Shown: piece by piece, positions 1,290 to 20,813 of the stretch
Layout: the number at the start of each line of letters is the position of its first letter
Numbering within the stretch: position 1 is the stretch's first letter
IMG/VR virus record: IMGVR_UViG_3300025120_000406
Location: 1-28,241 of that record
Origin: a virus
Direction: 5' to 3' (one strand)
DNA length: 28,241 bases
Made by a program: the position numbers and the translations under genes
Notes under the pieces: model-generated
Told to the model about the DNA's origin: nothing
Database searches by the model: none
The model's input: only the letters and a program-made list of their open reading frames with translations

Positions 1290-3536
1290 CTAACCAGCCT
1301 CAAGGGCTGCGACTTTGGTTTCAAGGGTTTCGATCTTTGCGATTGCTTCTTGTAGGGCTGCAGTTAGTAAAGGGACAAGTTTGGATTGGTCGATACCTTG
1401 CATGACAGCATTGCCATCATCATCAACTTCGTCTTTAGTTCCACTGGCACACTCAGGAACAACAGCTTGTGCTTCGTGGGCAAGAAAACCGTCAACCGTC
1501 ACCTCTGGGTCTACAGTAAAGTTGAAACGATGCGCCTGTAGTTTTTTGACTCGATCGAAGGCACAAATTAGTGGGACAATATTTTCTTTAAGCCGGTAAT
1601 CAGAAGAGGTGAGATAGGCAGTAGAACTGGGACTAGATTGTACATATCCAACGGCTGTATTTGCCACTCTAAATTCAATTTGGACTCTAGTACCATTACT
1701 GTTCCTGTTCAGTAGTAGTACACGAGCGCCGCTATCAGAAGAAGTGTTAGTGAGACCTAGATAGCCAGTTGCTCCTACGTTGAAAGAAAATCCCCGGACT
1801 GTATTAGTACCATCACTTCTCCCAATATGTAAATTGCCCGAGCTGTTGATTCGCATGGCCTCGGAGTTGTTATACCCCTTAAACTGCAAAGAGTTATCAC
1901 TAACGTCATAATTAATACCACCTCTATTTGTATCCGCTGTATCACCAAATTGAATACCAGCCGTACCTCCTGCAGAGGCAACAACTCTAATTTGAGTATC
2001 TGAGTCGCCCTGAACCTGAAGCTGTCTTCCAGGCGACGAAGTTCCAATCCCAACTCGTCCCGTGCTGACGATTCGCATTAGCTCGGTGCCGCTATCAGCA
2101 GGGTTATCGGTACTGTTAACATTATTTTTGAAAATAGTTGCACCTGTGCCAGAGGTAGTCCCTATGTAAATATCTCTAGTTTTGAATCCAATTTTGGCTC
2201 GATTTCCAGAGTCAGGGCCAATGTCAATGTGGGGCGCGTTTTGACCAATGTGTAGTTGAGCATCAGGGCTCGTAGTTCCAATTCCAACCCTGCCCGAGCT
2301 GTCGATTCGCATCCGCTCGCTAGTAAGAGTCGAAAATGCCATTGAATTGTTGGCATGGTCATATCTAATTTTTCCAACATTATCTGCTCCTGTTCCTTGG
2401 GCAAAAAAGATAGAACCCTTTGTACCAGCTGCACCATTATTGATAGTTATTCCTGCATTGTTAGAATCAGTCCCTACAACAAGCGTATAGGCTCCAGTGT
2501 TAAAGCTATCAGGCGACGACGTACCAATCCCAACTCGTCCGTCGCTGTCGATTCGCATGCGCTCGGTTGGGTCGTTAGATGAGTTACTGGAAGTGGCAAA
2601 AACAAGCCCAGTAGATCCAGCTCCACCGTCATCAACAGTGTCTATAGCGGCAACAACGTGGTTATTACCGGTCAGATAAAAACCAATGTTATGGCTAATT
2701 GCAGACGTTGTGTTGCTAGTCTGCATAGCAAGCTGATACTTACTTGCAGTTCGTGAAGGCGTACTATCAGATTGTTCAGCGCCTAAATCAAGACGAGTCA
2801 ATGGGTCACTGATAGAAATCCCAACGTTGCCCGAGCTGTCGATTCGTAGGCGCTCGGTTGGTGATGACGCACCATCGGCAGTAGTGGAGAACACTAGGCG
2901 GCTAGGTTGGCTACTACCAGATGTCCAAGTTCCGCCATCCCGTAAAGCGAGTATTGTTGCTGAGCTTGTGTGGCCGCTATCACTAAAGGCAATTTCACCT
3001 AAGCCAGCATTGTTGGATGGTGAAGTTGTGCCACGCGCAAAGACTATCTTGCCATTACCTGAAGATGATCCTGAGTTACCTTGCAGAATTTGTGTGGTTG
3101 TTACAGACGAACTAGACGTCCCCACCAACAGCCTGCCCGAGCTGTCGATTTGCATCCGCTCAGTGCCATTAGTGCTGATGGCTACTTGATCTGTACCTGG
3201 TGAATAAAGTCCATTATCTGTAGTTCCAACTGAAACCGATGGTGCTACTGCCGTACCAGAGCCAGCATTAATAACATCACTAGTAAGAGCACCCGTAAGA
3301 TTTAAAGTACCACCAACAGTTAAATTACCTGTTGTATTAATAGCCCCATCAACATCTAAAGTAGTACTAGGGGATTCATTATTAACACCTACTCTATTAT
3401 TTTGTGGATTTACATAAAGAGCGGCCCTTCCATTAGGGCCATCCGGTCCAAAGCTTGCTCGTCCTTGTGTATCAAGAACGACGTTACTAACGGCAGAAGA
3501 ACCGTGAATAAGATTAGAAGTGCGAAGGGTGCTCAT
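1290..3536 (-). CDS. Tail fibre with S74 intramolecular chaperone domain (fibre 1)
   Basis: A 748-residue adhesin-type protein. After an N-terminal segment (MSTLRTSNLIHGSSAVSN) come repeated units of the form ERMRIDSSGRVGIGTSSP, at least six, separated by variable beta-rich inserts of 30-90 residues. Such repeats form trimeric beta stalks in phage fibres. The C-terminal 104 residues are an S74 peptidase/chaperone domain: SDYRLKEN with Ser645, Asp646 and Lys650, then VDGFLAHEAQ, then a terminal coiled coil (LQEAIAKIETLETKVAALEAG). By analogy with the endosialidase chaperone, this domain drives trimerisation and cuts itself off just before the Ser. One insert (2545-2846) is nearly identical to part of fibre 2. 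Host-surface binding is inferred. Confidence 0.88.
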   Translation of the reverse strand: MSTLRTSNLIHGSSAVSNVVLDTQGRASFGPDGPNGRAALYVNPQNNRVGVNNESPSTTLDVDGAINTTGNLTVGGTLNLTGALTSDVINAGSGTAVAPSVSVGTTDNGLYSPGTDQVAISTNGTERMQIDSSGRLLVGTSSSSVTTTQILQGNSGSSSGNGKIVFARGTTSPSNNAGLGEIAFSDSGHTSSATILALRDGGTWTSGSSQPSRLVFSTTADGASSPTERLRIDSSGNVGISISDPLTRLDLGAEQSDSTPSRTASKYQLAMQTSNTTSAISHNIGFYLTGNNHVVAAIDTVDDGGAGSTGLVFATSSNSSNDPTERMRIDSDGRVGIGTSSPDSFNTGAYTLVVGTDSNNAGITINNGAAGTKGSIFFAQGTGADNVGKIRYDHANNSMAFSTLTSERMRIDSSGRVGIGTTSPDAQLHIGQNAPHIDIGPDSGNRAKIGFKTRDIYIGTTSGTGATIFKNNVNSTDNPADSGTELMRIVSTGRVGIGTSSPGRQLQVQGDSDTQIRVVASAGGTAGIQFGDTADTNRGGINYDVSDNSLQFKGYNNSEAMRINSSGNLHIGRSDGTNTVRGFSFNVGATGYLGLTNTSSDSGARVLLLNRNSNGTRVQIEFRVANTAVGYVQSSPSSTAYLTSSDYRLKENIVPLICAFDRVKKLQAHRFNFTVDPEVTVDGFLAHEAQAVVPECASGTKDEVDDDGNAVMQGIDQSKLVPLLTAALQEAIAKIETLETKVAALEAG
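2545..2846. repeat. 302-base fibre cassette, copy 1
   Basis: This stretch of fibre 1 aligns without gaps to 4771-5072 in fibre 2; I count about 15 differences by hand, so roughly 95% identity. It is bounded on both sides by the recurring ERMRIDSSG-coding sequence. The encoded insert contains SDPLTRLDLGAEQSDSTPSR in both copies. Confidence 0.9.
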
Positions 3537-3632: not shown

Positions 3633-5783
3633 CTAGGCGATACCAGCATCAGATAGACGCTGTTTGAGAGTTTCCATTTCTGTAATTGCTTCTTGTAATG
3701 CTGCAGTTAGTAAAGGGACAAGTTTTGATTGGTCGATTACTTGGTAGACAGGCACTGTTCGCGTGCCCATAACAGCTGGTGTTACTTCTTCCCCATCATC
3801 GTTTAGTACAGCTGGTGTTACTTCATACTCCTCTTCTTTAGTTGCATCCTTTTCGCCAGTGATGCACTCAGGAACAACGGATTGTGCTTCGTGCGCTAAG
3901 AATCCATCAACTGTGCGTTCAGGATCAGCAATAAAGTTAAACTTACACGGCTTAAGTTGTTGTAGACGAGTGATGCCATTATTAATCGCAGTTACATTTT
4001 CTTTTAAGCGATAATCTGAAGTGGTATTAAACGAAACCGAGGTTGTTCCGCTTCGAGTAATCGAACCGATAGCAGTAGTGTTGTAAGCAAAATAAGTGTA
4101 TACACTAGCTGCTCCAACTGAATGATTAAACCAAACGTCACTATTACCGGGACGGAAGGCAACTCCATTACTTGAAGATGCTCCAGCACTAGGATTGCTG
4201 ACACCAATCCCGACAGCGCCCGTGCTGTCGATACGCATGCGCTCGGTTGGCGTACCCCCACTTGTGCATGCTCTAAATAAAAGACTGTGATTTGTAGTGC
4301 CAATACCTCCAGACACAGCTTCAATGCTGGCAAACGGCCCATCAGAAAAATCTGAGCCACTAGCGATAAATGCAATACCAGCGGTTGATGGACCATTAGT
4401 TCTGTTTTGAACTAAAAGCGGATAAGATTCTCCGTCTTTTCTAACGTGAAGAGGCTTCTCTATACTTGTCGTTCCAATCCCAACTCTGCCCGAGCTGTCG
4501 ATTCGCATTGCCTCGTTAATTGAACCATCTTTGCGAATTTCAAACGAAAGATTAGCAGTTCTATTTGCACTAGTGCTAAAATCTTCTTCTGCGTTGCATT
4601 TAATTTGAGCACCTGTAATACTATTAGAAGGGCCAAAAGCAAGTGTTGCTAAGCCACTATTGCTTGTATTTGTGTTATATAAAAATAGGGTTGAACTTGC
4701 TGTGTTAGCAACTTGAAGGTTTGCAGATGTATATTCATTTGTGGTTGCTCCAACCAACAACATGCCCGAGCTGTCGATTCGCATGCGCTCGGTTGGGTCG
4801 CTAGATGAGTTACTGGAAGTGGCAAAAACAAGCCCAGTAGATCCATTTCCACCGTTTTCAACAGTGTCTATAGCGGCAACAACGTTGTCATTACCGCTCA
4901 GATAAAAACCAATGTTATGGCTAATTGCAGACGATGCATCGCTAGTCTGCATAGCAAGCTGGTACTTACTTGCAGTTCGTGAAGGCGTACTATCAGATTG
5001 TTCAGCGCCTAAATCAAGACGAGTCAATGGGTCACTGATAGAAATACCAACATTGCCCGAGCTGTCGATTCGCATCGCTTCGCTATTAATACCTTTACCG
5101 AGAAACCGAAGCGCGTTATCGCCGTGGTTGTAGCGAATCGCTCCACCGATACCGCTGCTATCTTTGAAATCAATAGCTGACTCAGCAAAATCATTGCTGG
5201 ATTCAAGTATTAGTGTTGGTTCAGACCCTGAGTTGTTTTCTGCGGCATGAATACGGAGTGTTGCATCACCTGTAGCGGCTTCTACGTCTAGGTTTGAACT
5301 AGGCGACGTTGTTCCGATTCCAACGTTGCCTGCAAAATATGCCTGTCCATTGCTGCCATAAAGATCAACATTAGTAACGTCAGATGCACTGCGAATTTGC
5401 AGGCGACCGTTGCCGCTATCTAACAACAAACGAATATGATCATCAGCAATATAGGCTGTGCCATTTACATGAAGTTTTTGGCTAGGCGACGACGTTCCAA
5501 TCCCAACCCTGCCCGAGCTGTCGATTCGTAGGCGTTCAGTGCCATCAGTTGAAATAGCTAATGTATTTGCTGCTGGTGCATATAAACCAGTATCTATATC
5601 ACCTTGTACATGAAGACCGGGTAAAGCTTCTGTACCTGAGGGGAATATTACTTCTAAGCTACTTCCACCGGCTAACAGCGTACCACCAGTTGCAGGCAAC
5701 GTAAAAGTCTGGTCATTACTTGCAGAAGCAATAATGGTACTGCGACCAGTGACGTTATTACTTAAACGAAGAACACCAGACAT
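3633..5783 (-). CDS. Tail fibre with S74 intramolecular chaperone domain (fibre 2)
   Basis: A 716-residue paralogue of fibre 1. The N terminus (MSGVLRLSNNVTGRSTIIAS) precedes repeats of the (E)RMRIDSSGRVGIGTSSP type, about five by eye, with unrelated beta-rich inserts between. The C-terminal S74 domain starts at Ser589 (SDYRLKEN, Asp590, Lys594) and contains VDGFLAHEAQ. It differs from fibre 1 by an acidic insertion (EEEYEVTPAVLNDDGEEVTP). The last residues, QRLSDAGIA, are the same as in fibre 3 and unlike fibre 1, while the preceding IDQSKLVPLLTAALQEAI matches fibre 1, so the end is a mosaic of the two neighbours. Expected role: receptor-binding fibre that self-cleaves its chaperone. Confidence 0.87.
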   Translation of the reverse strand: MSGVLRLSNNVTGRSTIIASASNDQTFTLPATGGTLLAGGSSLEVIFPSGTEALPGLHVQGDIDTGLYAPAANTLAISTDGTERLRIDSSGRVGIGTSSPSQKLHVNGTAYIADDHIRLLLDSGNGRLQIRSASDVTNVDLYGSNGQAYFAGNVGIGTTSPSSNLDVEAATGDATLRIHAAENNSGSEPTLILESSNDFAESAIDFKDSSGIGGAIRYNHGDNALRFLGKGINSEAMRIDSSGNVGISISDPLTRLDLGAEQSDSTPSRTASKYQLAMQTSDASSAISHNIGFYLSGNDNVVAAIDTVENGGNGSTGLVFATSSNSSSDPTERMRIDSSGMLLVGATTNEYTSANLQVANTASSTLFLYNTNTSNSGLATLAFGPSNSITGAQIKCNAEEDFSTSANRTANLSFEIRKDGSINEAMRIDSSGRVGIGTTSIEKPLHVRKDGESYPLLVQNRTNGPSTAGIAFIASGSDFSDGPFASIEAVSGGIGTTNHSLLFRACTSGGTPTERMRIDSTGAVGIGVSNPSAGASSSNGVAFRPGNSDVWFNHSVGAASVYTYFAYNTTAIGSITRSGTTSVSFNTTSDYRLKENVTAINNGITRLQQLKPCKFNFIADPERTVDGFLAHEAQSVVPECITGEKDATKEEEYEVTPAVLNDDGEEVTPAVMGTRTVPVYQVIDQSKLVPLLTAALQEAITEMETLKQRLSDAGIA
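4771..5072. repeat. 302-base fibre cassette, copy 2
   Basis: Partner of 2545-2846. The differences cluster where the encoded residues change (for example TSNTTS to TSDASS and TGNNHV to SGNDNV), while the flanking repeat-coding sequence is almost unchanged. Confidence 0.9.
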
Positions 5784-5868: not shown

Positions 5869-7842
5869 CTAGGCGATACCAGCATCAGATAGACGCTGTT
5901 CAAGGGTTTCAATCCTTGTCATTGCTTCTTGAAGTGCTTTAATTGCAATCCACATCATTTGCTGTTCTTTAACTCCCTTACGAAGAATTTGTTCCTGAGC
6001 AGGGGTGACAACGTTACCGTCTTCATCTAGAACAGCATCTTCTGCTCTTTGTTTTGTCCACTCAGTAATTACTTCAGGACAATGTGGTGCAATTTGTTGG
6101 GCAATAACACCGTATTTCTTGTCTTCAGTATCATCAGCTTCATTGTAATGAAACTTTTTAAGTTCCCAATTTTTTAAGCAATTCCAAGTGCTATCAAGCG
6201 GTTCAATGTTTTTCTTTTCACGTTCATCGCAAAGATTAGAGTTATATGCTTGAAAGTTAGCAATACCACCATCGGATTGGACCCGAAAACGTGTAGCGTT
6301 TAAATCCTCAAAGTGTAAAGGATAACTTGAATTATTATTTGGGGAAGTACCTTTGTATCTAATAGTTAGGCCGTGTGGTGCAGATGTGCCCATATTGACA
6401 AAACTTCCAATCCAGTTGCCGTTATTGGTTACATTCATTTCGTGAATAGAACCCGTGCCTCCAAAGTAATAACTACCATTGGTGGTCATCTTTGTTGCAC
6501 CCGAGCTGTCGATTCGCATCCGCTCGGTAGGGCTCGACGCACCATCGGCGGTGGTGGAGAACTCTAGGCGTGTTGGTTTATCGTTATCTCCTTGTGTTCC
6601 GTCAGCTTTTGCTTCAATTTCTGCTCCTATCTGATAACTGCCAGCGTTTCCTACAAATTTGATGGCACCAAGGCTGTTTCCTGATCCAACAGACTGATCA
6701 TCTCTCCCCAGAATAATTTCTGCTCCAGCACCAGCATGCAGCATTTGGAGTTTTTTCTCGTCACCAGAAATAAATGCACTAGTCGTACCCACCAACAGCC
6801 TGCCCGAGCTGTCGATTCGTAGGCGCTCGGTGTTTGCAGTGCCAATTCGGAGATAATTTGAAGCAGCATTTGCAGACAACCATTGATCAGCATCATTGCT
6901 TAGATAAATATATTGGTCTGTTCCATCCAACAGAATGTTGCCGGAAGTTACTTGCAGTTTTTGGCTGGGCGACGACGTGCCGATCCCAACATTTCCCGAG
7001 CTGTCGATTCGCATGCGCTCGGTTGGTGATGACGCACCATCGGCAGTTGTGCTGAACACTAGGCGGCCTGGCATATCATTAGCGCCTGGTGTGCCGTCTA
7101 CTTTTGCTTCAATAGATGCCGCAGAAATATAGGTTGACCCATCAGCTCCCGCCCATTGCAGCGTTCCTAAGCTGTCGTTGTTTTGCACAATGGTGTAAAG
7201 ATTAGGCAAATTACCCCTTGTGCGCTTAATACTGACAATTGGTCCTCCTGAACCACTTGCCCGTACAAATGTGCCAGTGTAAACACCATTTACTTGTAAT
7301 TTATAATCTTCAGACGCAGTAGACGTACCCACCAACAGCCTGCCCGAGCTGTCGATTCGCATTCGCTCGGCTGCATTTGCTTGAAAAATTAACGCATTAT
7401 TTGGGTTGTCATAAGTAATTGCGCCGCGATCATTATCTGACTCATCACCAAATTCAATCTTGGCACTAGCATTGTCGTCCGAGCTGATTACAAGCAATGC
7501 TTGAGCGGTGGTGCTATTTAGCCTCAGTGCCGAGCCGGTTACGTCAATATCACACTTGTAGCCAGGTGACGTTGTTCCAATCCCAACATTGCCCGTACTG
7601 TCAATTAATATTGCATTGGTGCCATTAGTAGACACACCAATACTGTTAGTTCCTGCATAATATAAACCGTTATCTGTATCACCACTAAACGTATAAGTAG
7701 GTGCTGCAGCAGTACCAGAACTAACAATTATTTTTTCTACGTCAAGAGGACCACTAACTGTTAATCCACTGAGAGTAAGCGCAGGTTCCTGAAGAGAAGT
7801 ACAGCCTGTAATTGCACCGCCGCCGCCAAGTTGTAATGTCAT
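5869..7842 (-). CDS. Tail fibre with variant S74 chaperone domain (fibre 3, Cys in place of Ser)
   Basis: A 657-residue fibre paralogue. A short N-terminal part (MTLQLGGGGAITGCTSL) is followed by units of ERMRIDSSGRLLVGTS or GNVGIGTSSP with variable inserts, including two GRLVFSTTADGASSPTERM-type cassettes also found in fibre 1. The C-terminal 120 residues are of S74 type, but the cleavage motif reads CDEREKKNI: Cys538 stands where the nucleophilic Ser is expected, with Asp539 and Lys543 kept. The domain then has KYGVIAQQIAPHCPEV rather than the GFLAHEAQ of the other two fibres, so it belongs to a different S74 branch. The last residues, EQRLSDAGIA, match fibre 2. Whether it self-cleaves with Cys is unknown. 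Confidence 0.85.
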   Translation of the reverse strand: MTLQLGGGGAITGCTSLQEPALTLSGLTVSGPLDVEKIIVSSGTAAAPTYTFSGDTDNGLYYAGTNSIGVSTNGTNAILIDSTGNVGIGTTSPGYKCDIDVTGSALRLNSTTAQALLVISSDDNASAKIEFGDESDNDRGAITYDNPNNALIFQANAAERMRIDSSGRLLVGTSTASEDYKLQVNGVYTGTFVRASGSGGPIVSIKRTRGNLPNLYTIVQNNDSLGTLQWAGADGSTYISAASIEAKVDGTPGANDMPGRLVFSTTADGASSPTERMRIDSSGNVGIGTSSPSQKLQVTSGNILLDGTDQYIYLSNDADQWLSANAASNYLRIGTANTERLRIDSSGRLLVGTTSAFISGDEKKLQMLHAGAGAEIILGRDDQSVGSGNSLGAIKFVGNAGSYQIGAEIEAKADGTQGDNDKPTRLEFSTTADGASSPTERMRIDSSGATKMTTNGSYYFGGTGSIHEMNVTNNGNWIGSFVNMGTSAPHGLTIRYKGTSPNNNSSYPLHFEDLNATRFRVQSDGGIANFQAYNSNLCDEREKKNIEPLDSTWNCLKNWELKKFHYNEADDTEDKKYGVIAQQIAPHCPEVITEWTKQRAEDAVLDEDGNVVTPAQEQILRKGVKEQQMMWIAIKALQEAMTRIETLEQRLSDAGIA

Positions 7843-8673: not shown

Positions 8674-10893
8674 TTAAATATTCCAAATCGTTAAGACATG
8701 TCGTCCTGCACTGTTTCCAGTTCCAGATTCAATTGTCCATCCTCTTTGGCCATTGACTGTTGCAGCAATCATTTCACCGGATGGGTTATAGAAACCTGTA
8801 TTTAAATCACCTGTGAATGTAATACCTGGTGCAGTTTGAGTACCCCATGGGAATTCAGCTTGACCTGAGAGTACTATAAAATCAGAGTGTGAAGTAACTG
8901 TTCCGCTAACAGTGACATCACCTCCGACATTTACACCACTTGTAACAAAAGCATTTCCACTGACGCTTAAATCTGCGTCAATAATAATTTCATTATCAAC
9001 TAATAAATTACCAAAATGTCCGGTCGTTGTTGAAATACTTGAACCAGTAATTGTTACACCGGTTAACTGAGTAAATGTACCGTTAGTGCCTAAGAAGTTT
9101 TCACCAGTAATAGTGATTCCCGTGACATTTGTATAATTTAAATTTGTACCACTAACCGTAATAGCTTTTAAATCAACAAAGTTACCTGAAGTAAAGTTTG
9201 CAGCATTACCTGTAACTGTTGTAAAGATACCAGTAATAGCAGTAATATTTCCACTGACGATAACATTGTCATCAACAATGACTTGACCAGAAACGAATAG
9301 GTCACCACTTACAACTAATCCACTTAAAATATTTAATTCATCAAAAGTTGTTGTACCGCTTACGTCCAGGTTTCCTGAAATAACTACGTTGCCATCAACA
9401 TCTAGATCGTTAGTAAATAAACCACTAGCCGCATGGATATATTCAATACCACTAATAGTAGTGTTACCATCGCCTGTAATATTGCCACTGACGATAGAGA
9501 AATCACCGCTCAGGCTTAGGTCTCCACTTAGTTCTGTTGTTCCATTAACAACCAAACCACTAGTAACATCAAGGTTTCCAGTTGCTGTGATGTCGTGTGC
9601 TTGTAGGTCACCCGTGATTGTGGCAGTTTGAGAGACTACTAAGACATCAAAGAAACCATCTGTACCACTAATGGTAGGTGCAGAGACAATTGTGTTAAAT
9701 GTACCACTGGTTCCTGTGATAGTTGTACCAGAAACCAATCCAGTGATAGATAAATCACCACCAATAAAACCTGATCCGTTAAGGAATAAATTTTCAACAA
9801 TGGTAAAACTACCACTAACCGTTTGGTCCCCGGAGAAACTTAAGTTAGTCGCATTTAATGTATCTACGTTAATTAAATCAGCATTAATAGTATCTCCCGT
9901 GATCGTGGTCCCAGATATGTAAGAGAAATCACCACTGATCGCTGTAATTTCATCAACAATTAAGTCACCTGTGATATTTAAATTACCTGTGATTGTTAAA
10001 TTATTCTGTATAAATGCGTCAGTAAAAGTTGCTACAATGCCTGTAACAGTCTCCCCATAAAAACCGCTAGCTACTAGCTGGTTGAAGTTACCGGAGGTTA
10101 CACGTAAATTAGTACCTGTTGCTTCTGTAAATAAAACCGTGTTACCAGTAATAGTGGCACCTGAAACTGTATCAAATACACCAAGGATTCCAGTTATATT
10201 AGTAAACTGACCGATGTCACCAGTAATGGTGGCTCCTGAAATTGTTCCTGTTGCATTAATATTGTTAGCATTAATATCACCAGTAATAGTGACACCAGAA
10301 CCAACAAATTCATCAACGATCAGATAATCAAAATAGCCACTGACAGCATCAATCCCACGGGTGACAGTTAAGTCAACAACCGTACCGCTTTCAATGCCGA
10401 CATTATCACCAGTGATTGTGGTGCCGGAAGCATAGTCAAAATAACCGCTAGTAAAGTCACTTACCGTACCAGTGGCAATAGTGAAGTTCCCTGAGGTTAC
10501 CTCAAGATAATCTCCAAGTAAATTCTGAGCATCTACTTGGTTGGTAGTAATATTTCCTGTTACTGAAACATTATTACCGATAAATAAATTTGAGTTTATT
10601 TCTACGTTTGATTCAAATACACTAGTGCCTGATACCGTTAAATTTCCACGTAAATTCTGATCGCCATAAATTGAAGCATACCCAGTGACAAGAACGTTAC
10701 CTACGGTAAAAGGATCAGTCTCTCCTTGGTTAATGTAGTATTGGTCAAGATAAACCCGAAGACCACTAAAATTTAATTTCTTATTACGTAGAGCAGGATC
10801 AATCTCAAAAACTGAGACAAGCGTTACTAGGTCTTGATCGACAATATCAGCCGGGAGAATAGCCGGGAATTGTGTAATTTTCCTATTTGCCAC
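8674..10893 (-). CDS. Long repetitive stalk protein, probable fibre or neck/tail attachment protein
   Basis: A 739-residue protein. The N-terminal 55 residues (MANRKITQFPAILPADIVDQ, then NKKLNFSGLRVYLDQYY) resemble a virion-attachment module I have seen at the start of cyanophage fibre-like proteins. Residues about 70-690 are a near-continuous run of short units built on VSG-x-TITGD or GNLTVSGT, a composition dominated by T, S, G, I, V and N typical of beta-helical trimeric shafts. The C terminus (TAPGITFTGDLNTGFYNPSG, then NGQRGWTIESGTG) contains the dNTGfY motif also seen near the start of the S74 fibres (for example GDTDNGLYYAGTN in fibre 3), suggesting a shared docking or capping element. 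No catalytic motif is visible. Confidence 0.72.
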   Translation of the reverse strand: MANRKITQFPAILPADIVDQDLVTLVSVFEIDPALRNKKLNFSGLRVYLDQYYINQGETDPFTVGNVLVTGYASIYGDQNLRGNLTVSGTSVFESNVEINSNLFIGNNVSVTGNITTNQVDAQNLLGDYLEVTSGNFTIATGTVSDFTSGYFDYASGTTITGDNVGIESGTVVDLTVTRGIDAVSGYFDYLIVDEFVGSGVTITGDINANNINATGTISGATITGDIGQFTNITGILGVFDTVSGATITGNTVLFTEATGTNLRVTSGNFNQLVASGFYGETVTGIVATFTDAFIQNNLTITGNLNITGDLIVDEITAISGDFSYISGTTITGDTINADLINVDTLNATNLSFSGDQTVSGSFTIVENLFLNGSGFIGGDLSITGLVSGTTITGTSGTFNTIVSAPTISGTDGFFDVLVVSQTATITGDLQAHDITATGNLDVTSGLVVNGTTELSGDLSLSGDFSIVSGNITGDGNTTISGIEYIHAASGLFTNDLDVDGNVVISGNLDVSGTTTFDELNILSGLVVSGDLFVSGQVIVDDNVIVSGNITAITGIFTTVTGNAANFTSGNFVDLKAITVSGTNLNYTNVTGITITGENFLGTNGTFTQLTGVTITGSSISTTTGHFGNLLVDNEIIIDADLSVSGNAFVTSGVNVGGDVTVSGTVTSHSDFIVLSGQAEFPWGTQTAPGITFTGDLNTGFYNPSGEMIAATVNGQRGWTIESGTGNSAGRHVLTIWNI

Positions 10894-15085: not shown

Positions 15086-15277
15086 ATGACAGTTACAACA
15101 AACGAGCACGGACAAACAAACGTCTTTGCCAAAGAACCAACAATGGAGGTAATTGAAGTGAACGAAAACCACAACACAAAAGCAGAACGTTTAAACGGCA
15201 GGCTTGCGATGCTAGGAATCATTGCTGCTCTTGGAGCCTATGCATTAACTGGAGATTTGATCCCAGGCTTGTGGTGA
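15086..15277 (+). CDS. hli: High-light-inducible protein (Hli/Scp)
   Basis: A 63-residue protein starting at the ATG at 15086; an upstream in-frame TTG adds only three residues. Residues 34-44 read ERLNGRLAMLG, the chlorophyll-binding signature ExxNGRxAMxG of Hli proteins, within a single transmembrane helix (about 36-56) ending in DLIPGLW. In cyanobacteria Hlis bind chlorophyll and carotenoid in the thylakoid membrane and protect photosystem II and its assembly; marine cyanophages carry them to keep photosynthesis running during infection. The N-terminal 30 residues are polar and free of domains. Its TGA overlaps a GTG start of the next gene (GTGA at 15274). Confidence 0.95.
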   Translation: MTVTTNEHGQTNVFAKEPTMEVIEVNENHNTKAERLNGRLAMLGIIAALGAYALTGDLIPGLW

Positions 15278-15733: not shown

Positions 15734-16030
15734 CTAGAAAGGCTGATAGTTACTTTCGTCGTCGTCATCATCATCACGCATCATAGTCAAGGCTAGTTGC
15801 GTGAGTTCAAAATCAGTGGGAATATCGAATTCAATATCAATATTTTCAGCGGCCAGCATGTCTTTAATTGCTTGAGTCTCAATCAAACGTTTATGAAAAA
15901 GGCATAACAAGGCAATTTGCAGCTGATCCCAGGTCATTTCTTGGGAGTCTAGCTCTGCCTTTCTCATTGCCAATTGTAAGTGCAAAGGCATATCATATTC
16001 TTCATTTGTCTCAATGCTATTCATGCTCAT
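15734..16030 (-). CDS. NblA-like phycobilisome-degradation adaptor (candidate)
   Basis: A 98-residue protein. Residues 16-62 (LHLQLAMRKAELDSQEM, then TWDQLQIALLCLFHKRLIET, then QAIKDMLAAE) can be laid without gaps on the NblA helix pair, which I recall as L-x-L-E-Q-x-F-x-LR-x-F-E-x-Q-V-x-x-M-S-R-E-Q-A-Q-x-F-L-x-x-L-Y...Y-K-x-L-L. Matching positions include Arg23, Glu26, Met32, Gln36, Gln38, Leu41, Leu44, the aromatic Phe45, Lys56 and Leu59. NblA steers phycobilisomes to Clp proteolysis, and freshwater and some marine cyanophages carry it. Unlike host NblA (about 60 residues) it has a 14-residue N-terminal and about 35-residue acidic C-terminal extension with six Asp in a row. It lies close to hli and just upstream of the lysozyme gene. 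The match is short and by eye, so this is a candidate call. Confidence 0.5.
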   Translation of the reverse strand: MSMNSIETNEEYDMPLHLQLAMRKAELDSQEMTWDQLQIALLCLFHKRLIETQAIKDMLAAENIDIEFDIPTDFELTQLALTMMRDDDDDDESNYQPF

Positions 16031-16054: not shown

Positions 16055-16714
16055 CTACAGGTTAAAGATTGTGTCGTACTCAGATTGGCTATATTCTACG
16101 TATGGGTCTGCATCTATTTCAAAATCATTTGCAAAACTAGAGAGTGCGTAAGGATCTATCGCTTCTTGTAGCTTGCGAATAGCTCGGACTTGAGCAGGAG
16201 AAGCTACATAATTCCTAAAGGCTTTTAAAAGAATATCAGAACCTATCCAAGAGCTATCTAGTAACTCACTTAAAAATAATCTGACCTCTTTACGGCGGCG
16301 TTCCACGAGGCCGCCGATAACGTTATATTCTGAATCATAGATCCACTTGGTCATTTCCTTTGCTGCTTGATTGTACTCTTCACGCTCACAGCAATCAACT
16401 ACGTTACTGTAGAGAAAAGATTCCCAACCCACTGAATGCACAAACGAAATTAAGGCATTTAACATTTGAAGATCTAAACCTAAATTTAGATCAATGATTT
16501 GAGTTGAAATAATTTTGATTTCATCATTTAGGTATGCAAGAGCTTTTTCTTTAGTACAGAGATGACCCTGACGGACCGGAGAACCGTCAGGATAATAGGT
16601 TGTACCAAAGCCAATAATAAAGGCTTCTCCATCTGTTGTGGAATCGCTACAGGCTTTCTCATGGAAGCCCTCAAACGTTTTGATTAGTTGAATCGCTTCG
16701 TTAAAGGGAACCAT
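16055..16714 (-). CDS. GH24 (T4-type) lysozyme, endolysin
   Basis: A 219-residue muramidase-type endolysin. The N-terminal domain has LIKTFEGF with Glu15 in the position of the catalytic Glu, then a loop with Asp24 and FIIGFGTTYYPDG, where Thr38 of GFGTT fits the Glu/Asp/Thr triad of GH24. ALISFVHSVGWESF and GGLVERRRKEVRLFL (the GL..RR..E...F signature) complete the family pattern. The last 60 residues are an additional acidic helical region (SPAQVRAIRKLQEAIDPYAL) that may bind the cell wall or partner proteins. There is no signal peptide, so it would need a holin to reach the wall. It lies 24 bases downstream of the NblA-like gene on the same strand. Confidence 0.88.
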   Translation of the reverse strand: MVPFNEAIQLIKTFEGFHEKACSDSTTDGEAFIIGFGTTYYPDGSPVRQGHLCTKEKALAYLNDEIKIISTQIIDLNLGLDLQMLNALISFVHSVGWESFLYSNVVDCCEREEYNQAAKEMTKWIYDSEYNVIGGLVERRRKEVRLFLSELLDSSWIGSDILLKAFRNYVASPAQVRAIRKLQEAIDPYALSSFANDFEIDADPYVEYSQSEYDTIFNL

Positions 16715-17043: not shown

Positions 17044-17340
17044 TTACCATTTTTCACGATGCGACCAATAACGTGCACTCATTTTACTTGGCTTACTATC
17101 TTGAGCATTATGTCTTGCATAGTATGATTTCTTACGTGCCTTATCCTTAGCTGTTTTGGGGTTCTTTCCGGCACCTTCTACACCCTGTTGGCCAAAGCGA
17201 ATAATCTTTTCTTTTCCTTTATCACAAGCTTTTACAACGTGTGATTTAGTTTTATGTCCAGGGGTTTTCTTTGGCTTGTTACATGCCATCTTATCTTTAT
17301 GTAACTTAGCCGCACTAGCAGCTTTCTTTGCTTTAGACAT
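17044..17340 (-). CDS. Small basic phage protein with RFGQQG...ARH...YW..W pattern
   Basis: A 98-residue lysine-rich protein. The first 45 residues are K/A-rich and disordered (MSKAKKAASAAKLHKDKM). The C-terminal half has the order KEKIIRFGQQGVEGAG, KARKKSYYARHNA and MSARYWSHREKW. I recognise this order from a conserved family of short phage proteins, seen across tailed phages of cyanobacteria and others; function unknown. Conserved Arg, His and Trp suggest a specific nucleic-acid or capsid contact, not proven. It lies 5 bases past the stop of the 1030-residue gene. Confidence 0.65.
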   Translation of the reverse strand: MSKAKKAASAAKLHKDKMACNKPKKTPGHKTKSHVVKACDKGKEKIIRFGQQGVEGAGKNPKTAKDKARKKSYYARHNAQDSKPSKMSARYWSHREKW

Positions 17341-20441: not shown

Positions 20442-20813
20442 CTACGCGGGTTTAAACATCATGTCTAATGATTCTAATTCATTATCCAATATGTACACGC
20501 TCTTATCTTCCATCCAGTTTTGGATTGCTGCTAGCTTTGCTTCTTCAAAGAAAGGTTGGCTGCGATACCATTCTTCCATTGGGCTTGATGCTTTATCTGA
20601 ATTGCATGTTCTACATGCAGGAACTAAGTTGTAGCAATTACTAGAGCCTGATTTAAACCGTGGAACAATATGATCAAGACTCGTAGCAGGCTTACCACAA
20701 TAAGCACATTCGTGGTTCCATGCTTTATATATCTCGTCTCGGAAGCGTTTCTTTGCGTGTTTAGGCCGTAATTCAAGTAGGAGGGCGAGGGGTTCGTTCT
20801 CCGTTTTGAACAT
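20442..20813 (-). CDS. HNH endonuclease
   Basis: A 123-residue protein with a complete HNH nuclease domain. Seen: CAYC (Cys36, Cys39), LDHIVPRFKSG (Asp47-His48, the catalytic His), NCYNLVPAC (Asn62) and CRTCN (Cys67, Cys70, Asn71), so both zinc-binding CxxC pairs and the H-N-N core are present. The N-terminal 30 residues are basic and helical and the C terminus is helical. Such free-standing nucleases act as homing or packaging-associated endonucleases in phages. It lies 3 bases before the 1030-residue gene on the same strand and about 130 bases from the divergent excisionase-like gene, so it may be a mobile insert. Confidence 0.88.
   Translation of the reverse strand: MFKTENEPLALLLELRPKHAKKRFRDEIYKAWNHECAYCGKPATSLDHIVPRFKSGSSNCYNLVPACRTCNSDKASSPMEEWYRSQPFFEEAKLAAIQNWMEDKSVYILDNELESLDMMFKPA

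Follow-up and report, generated by a model that had tools for sequence, protein, structure and literature searches.

The window analysed here, the whole 28,241-nt stretch of a 28-kb virus record, belongs to the lineage of Synechococcus phage S-EIV1 and carries on its minus strand an ORF of 98 codons that encodes a 98-residue NblA-like protein. The features of this gene and its surroundings are as follows.

15734–16030, minus strand: NblA-like gene, from the ORF list; conserved start Met3 at 16024, giving 96 aa
15848–16000, minus strand: NblA-homologous region, residues 11–61, ungapped on Anabaena NblA 4–54 (HMMER and HHalign alignments, reciprocal blind searches)
15941–15985, minus strand: predicted helix 1, residues 16–30 (AlphaFold2 core model)
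15848–15931, minus strand: predicted helix 2, residues 34–61 (AlphaFold2)
15767–15847, minus strand: family-specific extension, residues 62–88, absent from NblA (alignment A4)
15737–15775, minus strand: acidic tail, residues 86–98, with D86–D91 and C-terminus QPF (sequence)
16055–16714, minus strand: phage lysozyme (endolysin), PF00959 E 1.8e-18, 24 nt upstream of the NblA-like gene on the same strand
15086–15277, plus strand: hli (high-light-inducible protein), phrog_178 E 4.1e-27, convergent

For the ORF at 15734–16030, the initial annotation had noted an acidic C-terminal extension of 35 residues and six consecutive Asp residues, and all of these are present as described, the Asp residues lying at 86–91. 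It had begun the protein at Met1, a residue absent from the relatives compared, in which the conserved start is Met3. Since Met3 is kept and Met1 is lost in the relatives, and since an AGGG stands 9 nt 5′ of the second ATG, the protein is probably 96 aa in length (15734–16024). Comparison with near relatives gave a dN/dS of 0.027–0.059; the ORF is a genuine gene and evolves under purifying selection. Scanning the window revealed no RNA element and no tRNA, and the matches of the promoter scan were not specific.

Several other minus-strand genes of the window were also noted. Three large tail-fibre-like genes follow one another at 1290–3536, 3633–5783, and 5869–7842, each with a Peptidase_S74 chaperone domain near its C-terminus (E 3.6e-6, 1.2e-7, and 1.7e-9, respectively), which suggests a duplicated fibre cassette. 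A 739-aa repetitive protein with VSG/TITG repeats and a Bactofilin-like match (E 2.6e-10) is encoded at 8674–10893, and an HNH endonuclease gene at 20442–20813 stands beside that of a 1030-aa protein in a gene order kept in most relatives. The Lys-rich 98-aa protein encoded at 17044–17340 is strongly conserved within the S-EIV1 lineage, and the DNA of this stretch also matches that of HMO-2011, SIO1, and Roseobacter phages, none of which infect cyanobacteria.

Searched on its own against Pfam, the window protein had no PF04485 (NblA) match, a PHROG scan gave nothing, and PF04485 run on the window likewise found no match. An HMM search of residues 14–65 against PF04485, which the initial annotation had put forward as a check, thus returned nothing for the window protein, and the link to NblA is visible from orthologues and profiles alone. 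Because the single protein gave no NblA signal, orthologues were gathered. Two scans of IMG/VR yielded 80 loci with the NblA-like gene, and a third scan, which began from the neighbouring lysozyme and so avoided selection on the NblA-like protein itself, yielded freshwater-type contigs in which an orthologue was the next gene. The freshwater-type orthologues read LPLELQFSMRKAEL where the window protein has MPLHLQLAMRKAEL and NblA has LSLEQQFSIRSF. The sole phage isolate with the protein is S-EIV1, which infects Synechococcus and whose AHV82245 (56% identical) is annotated as 'hypothetical'; no relative was found on plasmids.

These loci show that the NblA-like gene is fixed in the S-EIV1 lineage, directly behind the endolysin. 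In 78 of 81 loci the gene immediately upstream, on the same strand, is that of the lysozyme; in the remaining three the contig breaks off at the NblA-like gene. In the lysozyme-first test an NblA-like orthologue adjoined the lysozyme in all 23 loci. The initial annotation had joined the gene with hli into a small photosynthesis-control set. The distance that it gave, about 460 bases, is right; hli, however, is on the opposite strand, in convergent orientation, with two ORFs between, and was found near the NblA-like gene in only 24 of the 81 loci. The pairing was accordingly rejected: as the lysozyme is the invariant neighbour and hli an occasional one, we regard the NblA-like gene as a fixed, probably late gene rather than as half of an hli pair.

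The relationship to NblA was examined in both directions. A 35-row orthologue profile run against the PDB (177,635 chains, E <= 10) gave Anabaena NblA (1OJH) as its sole match, at E 2.8e-4; the core-only profile matched the same protein at E 2.4e-4, and a profile of the first-found members had already had it as its sole match (E 0.012–0.016). As a yardstick, a single-sequence search with Anabaena NblA reached the NblA of S. elongatus at E 8.6e-4 and that of T. vulcanus at E 0.011. HHalign comparison of the family with 69 diverse NblA sequences gave P 8.6e-7 and a probability of 91.5%, ungapped across 49 columns, and the core alone gave P 7.6e-8 and 94.5%. The true score was 35.0, against 21.9 for the best of 500 column-shuffled and heptad-block-shuffled decoys; all of the 600 decoys in a second run fell far under the true score, and the reversed alignment had no match to NblA.

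When PF04485 was run blind on whole contigs, the NblA-like gene was the only gene matched in all 7 of the freshwater-type contigs (E from 2.8e-7 to 1.6e-4), and it was also matched in S-EIV1 (E 5.9e-4) and in 3 of 8 other related contigs. PF04485 was the top Pfam family for all 10 freshwater-type orthologues tested, and no member reached 25 bits, the curated cut-off in Pfam, the best orthologue scoring 24.6 bits. In the reciprocal scan, the family profile run blind on 386 cyanobacterial genomes gave matches in 23. Of these, 22 fell on NblA genes, with E as low as 3.4e-6, and one was weak and lay inside a 691-aa frame. The family profile found cyanobacterial NblA genes only once freshwater orthologues were included; a profile made from marine members only (A2) found none in 146 cyanobacterial genomes. 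A tblastn search of phages with Anabaena NblA gave nothing at E 1, and a more central NblA query found Microcystis phages. The results obtained with the orthologues are not mutually independent; the scan of phages with PF04485 and that of cyanobacteria with the family profile are reciprocal.

HMMER and HHalign independently arrived at the register that the initial annotation had drawn without gaps, and the descent from NblA that it had proposed is borne out by the reciprocal blind searches and the profile–profile comparison. Judged by these alignments, residues ~11–61 very probably share common descent with NblA.

The predicted fold agrees with this assignment. A helical hairpin had been anticipated, and the AlphaFold2 monomer model of the core is a confident helix-loop-helix, consisting of two helices and a short loop, with a mean pLDDT of 90.8. 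In the full-length model a further helix (residues 73–88) is less certain, being predicted with moderate confidence, and the acidic tail is of low confidence. Foldseek comparison of the full and core models with the PDB and viral libraries gave no significant match and none to NblA, in a search that had no NblA control and to which short helical models are poorly suited. The extension was rightly singled out as unusual for NblA. Residues 62–88 contain a conserved E-x(4)-EFD-x-PT-x-x-EL-x-x-LA, within which E62, P71, E75, and L79 are invariant (alignment A4), and the charge of the tail stays between −9 and −13 in all relatives for which it was counted, although its exact letters vary and the six-Asp run of the window protein is not conserved. 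Given invariant residues of its own and the retained acidity of the tail, the extension belongs to what is conserved in the subfamily and is not noise.

Residue by residue, the core is conserved in its framework and altered at both ends. All nine residues on which the initial annotation had relied fall on positions that are conserved or common in NblA, namely (window/NblA) Arg23/R16, Glu26/E19, Met32/M25, Gln36/Q29, Gln38/Q31, Leu41/L34, Leu44/L37, Lys56/K49, and Leu59/L52. The equivalents of NblA L7, L9, Q12, F/L13, R16, M25, S/T26, D/E28, Q29, L34, L37, Y38, K49, L51, and L52 are retained. At the C-terminal end, NblA Lys53-His54 is replaced by Ala-Ala in the window protein, and family-wide the K53 position is Q or A and the H54 position A, D, or S. 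We take the basic residues K53 and H54 to be the antenna-binding end of NblA. At the N-terminal end, the invariant Glu10 and Gln11 of NblA are replaced by His17 and Leu18, so that the motif L-x-LEQQF of NblA reads M-P-L-H-L-Q-L in the window, with L9 and Q12 retained and E10 and Q11 not; the freshwater orthologues retain the E. These most conserved N-terminal residues of NblA have been associated with ClpC binding (PMC4103541). The protein is also longer, at 96–98 aa with the conserved extension against ~60 aa without it in NblA. As the curated Pfam cut-off is missed and both signature ends are lost, we file the family as a divergent NblA-like subfamily and not as NblA.

This subfamily differs from the NblA proteins described so far. 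Cyanobacterial NblA (PF04485; 1OJH, 2Q8V, 2QDO, 3CS5) has the ungapped 50-residue helix-loop-helix in common with the phage protein; the latter, however, is under the curated cut-off, has lost E10-Q11 and K53-H54, and adds the 35-residue acidic extension, with its predicted third helix, and a late-operon location. The freshwater cyanophages Ma-LMM01, MaMV-DC, and PaV-LD likewise encode NblA homologues, but these score 45–52 bits against PF04485, whereas the family described here scores at most 24.6 bits, and their genes are near nrdA or elsewhere, whereas here the gene is fixed behind the lysozyme. S-EIV1 AHV82245 is an orthologue in the same place behind the lysozyme, a freshwater form with a longer acidic tail that is not annotated as NblA. 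Distant NblA homologues have likewise been predicted in marine cyanophages, in the myoviruses S-SCSM1 (ORF237) and S-TIM5 (PMC9602691), but the S-SCSM1 protein is a different short sequence of 54 aa. In profile comparison, the S-SCSM1/S-TIM5 set reached only P 0.033 with NblA and did not match the family described here, and two loci with the published marine myovirus NblA sequences (L203:24854-25018 and L204:28952-29116) had no PF04485 match and only a poor profile match to NblA. On these comparisons, the published annotation of marine myovirus NblA deserves renewed scrutiny. Nishimura et al. give hli and ptoX as the only photosynthetic genes of the S-EIV1 lineage (PMC5332604), and the literature passages compared that name both S-EIV1 and nblA draw no link between the two; Nadel et al. 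(2019) may already include the S-EIV1 gene. S. elongatus UTEX 3055 reportedly carries an 89-kb prophage whose closest likeness is S-EIV1 (PMC9239245), and this prophage may hold a laboratory-tractable copy of the NblA-like gene.

NblA connects ClpC with phycobiliproteins (PMC7966870, PMC4103541), and the other phage NblAs tested so far cause phycobilisome loss or bleaching upon expression (PMC9602691). On balance, we favour the interpretation that the gene encodes a divergent, tail-extended NblA homologue, fixed in the S-EIV1 lineage and probably late, that serves as a ClpC adaptor for phycobilisome proteins. The protein would be expressed late, probably together with the lysozyme, would dimerise as NblA does and bind phycobiliproteins, and would deliver them to the host ClpC-ClpP protease, so that antenna protein degraded late in infection would yield amino acids for virion synthesis and light input would fall. 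Through the changed ClpC-side motif and the added acidic extension, one of these two contacts might have been retuned, for instance to suit antennae rich in phycoerythrin or to hold ClpC in another way. The Synechococcus host of the only isolate, the phage NblA precedent, the reciprocal homology, and the helix-loop-helix model argue for this interpretation; the scores below the Pfam cut-off, the failure of the window protein by itself to match NblA, the replaced invariant residues, and a fixed, lysozyme-linked gene where other phage nblA genes are patchy count against it.

With both contact regions altered in the window protein, a serious rival is a redirected Clp adaptor or anti-adaptor derived from NblA, which would retain the NblA fold, and possibly its contact with ClpC, and either deliver some other host protein or block ClpC, sparing phage proteins. 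This would fit the loss of K53 and H54 at the antenna end, the presence instead of an extension with invariant residues of its own, and the fixation of the gene in the lineage. In the marine members, however, the most conserved N-terminal residues, with which ClpC binding has been associated (PMC4103541), have changed too, and nothing points positively to another target, so we consider this reading unlikely. A virion, assembly, or lysis protein of NblA descent, acting in concert with the lysozyme or tail genes nearby, appears less likely still. The gene always follows immediately after the endolysin, where the structural operon ends, as one would expect of a structural or lysis gene, but position alone is weak evidence, since the published marine phage nblA of S-SCSM1 is also among virion genes, and the protein is not a holin, as its sequence has no apparent transmembrane or signal segment. 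Six of 27 members weakly resemble the tail-assembly-chaperone family phrog_2992 (best E 0.0078); the window protein does not match it and the resemblance is not reciprocal, so a tail assembly chaperone was rejected, and the link to NblA is both far stronger and reciprocal. Chance likeness of two amphipathic helices to NblA is close to refuted, for although short helical motifs easily give spurious matches and the window protein by itself has no significant one, both sets of decoys, heptad-preserving ones included, scored far below the family, the reversed alignment was null, and blind searches succeeded both ways.

In other phages, nblA is an accessory gene of scattered occurrence (PMC9602691). 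It is conceivable, albeit doubtful, that NblA has become throughout this lineage, in fresh and salt water alike, an obligatory late, lysis-coupled protein whose added acidic domain confers a new substrate or a new mode of ClpC engagement. If so, controlled host proteolysis would be part of the core programme of these phages and no longer an optional addition to their metabolism.

The S-EIV1 lineage is widespread and, if its NblA is active, antenna dismantling would be universal in the lineage and late. A recognisable NblA was found in 125 of the 386 cyanobacterial genomes sampled, and many of those listed without one are of 1.8–2.2 Mb; an active phage protein would act in small-genome cyanobacteria, many of which apparently have no recognisable NblA of their own. 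A natural NblA that is strongly conserved and yet lacks the usual contact residues would also help to reveal the contacts on which delivery to Clp depends.
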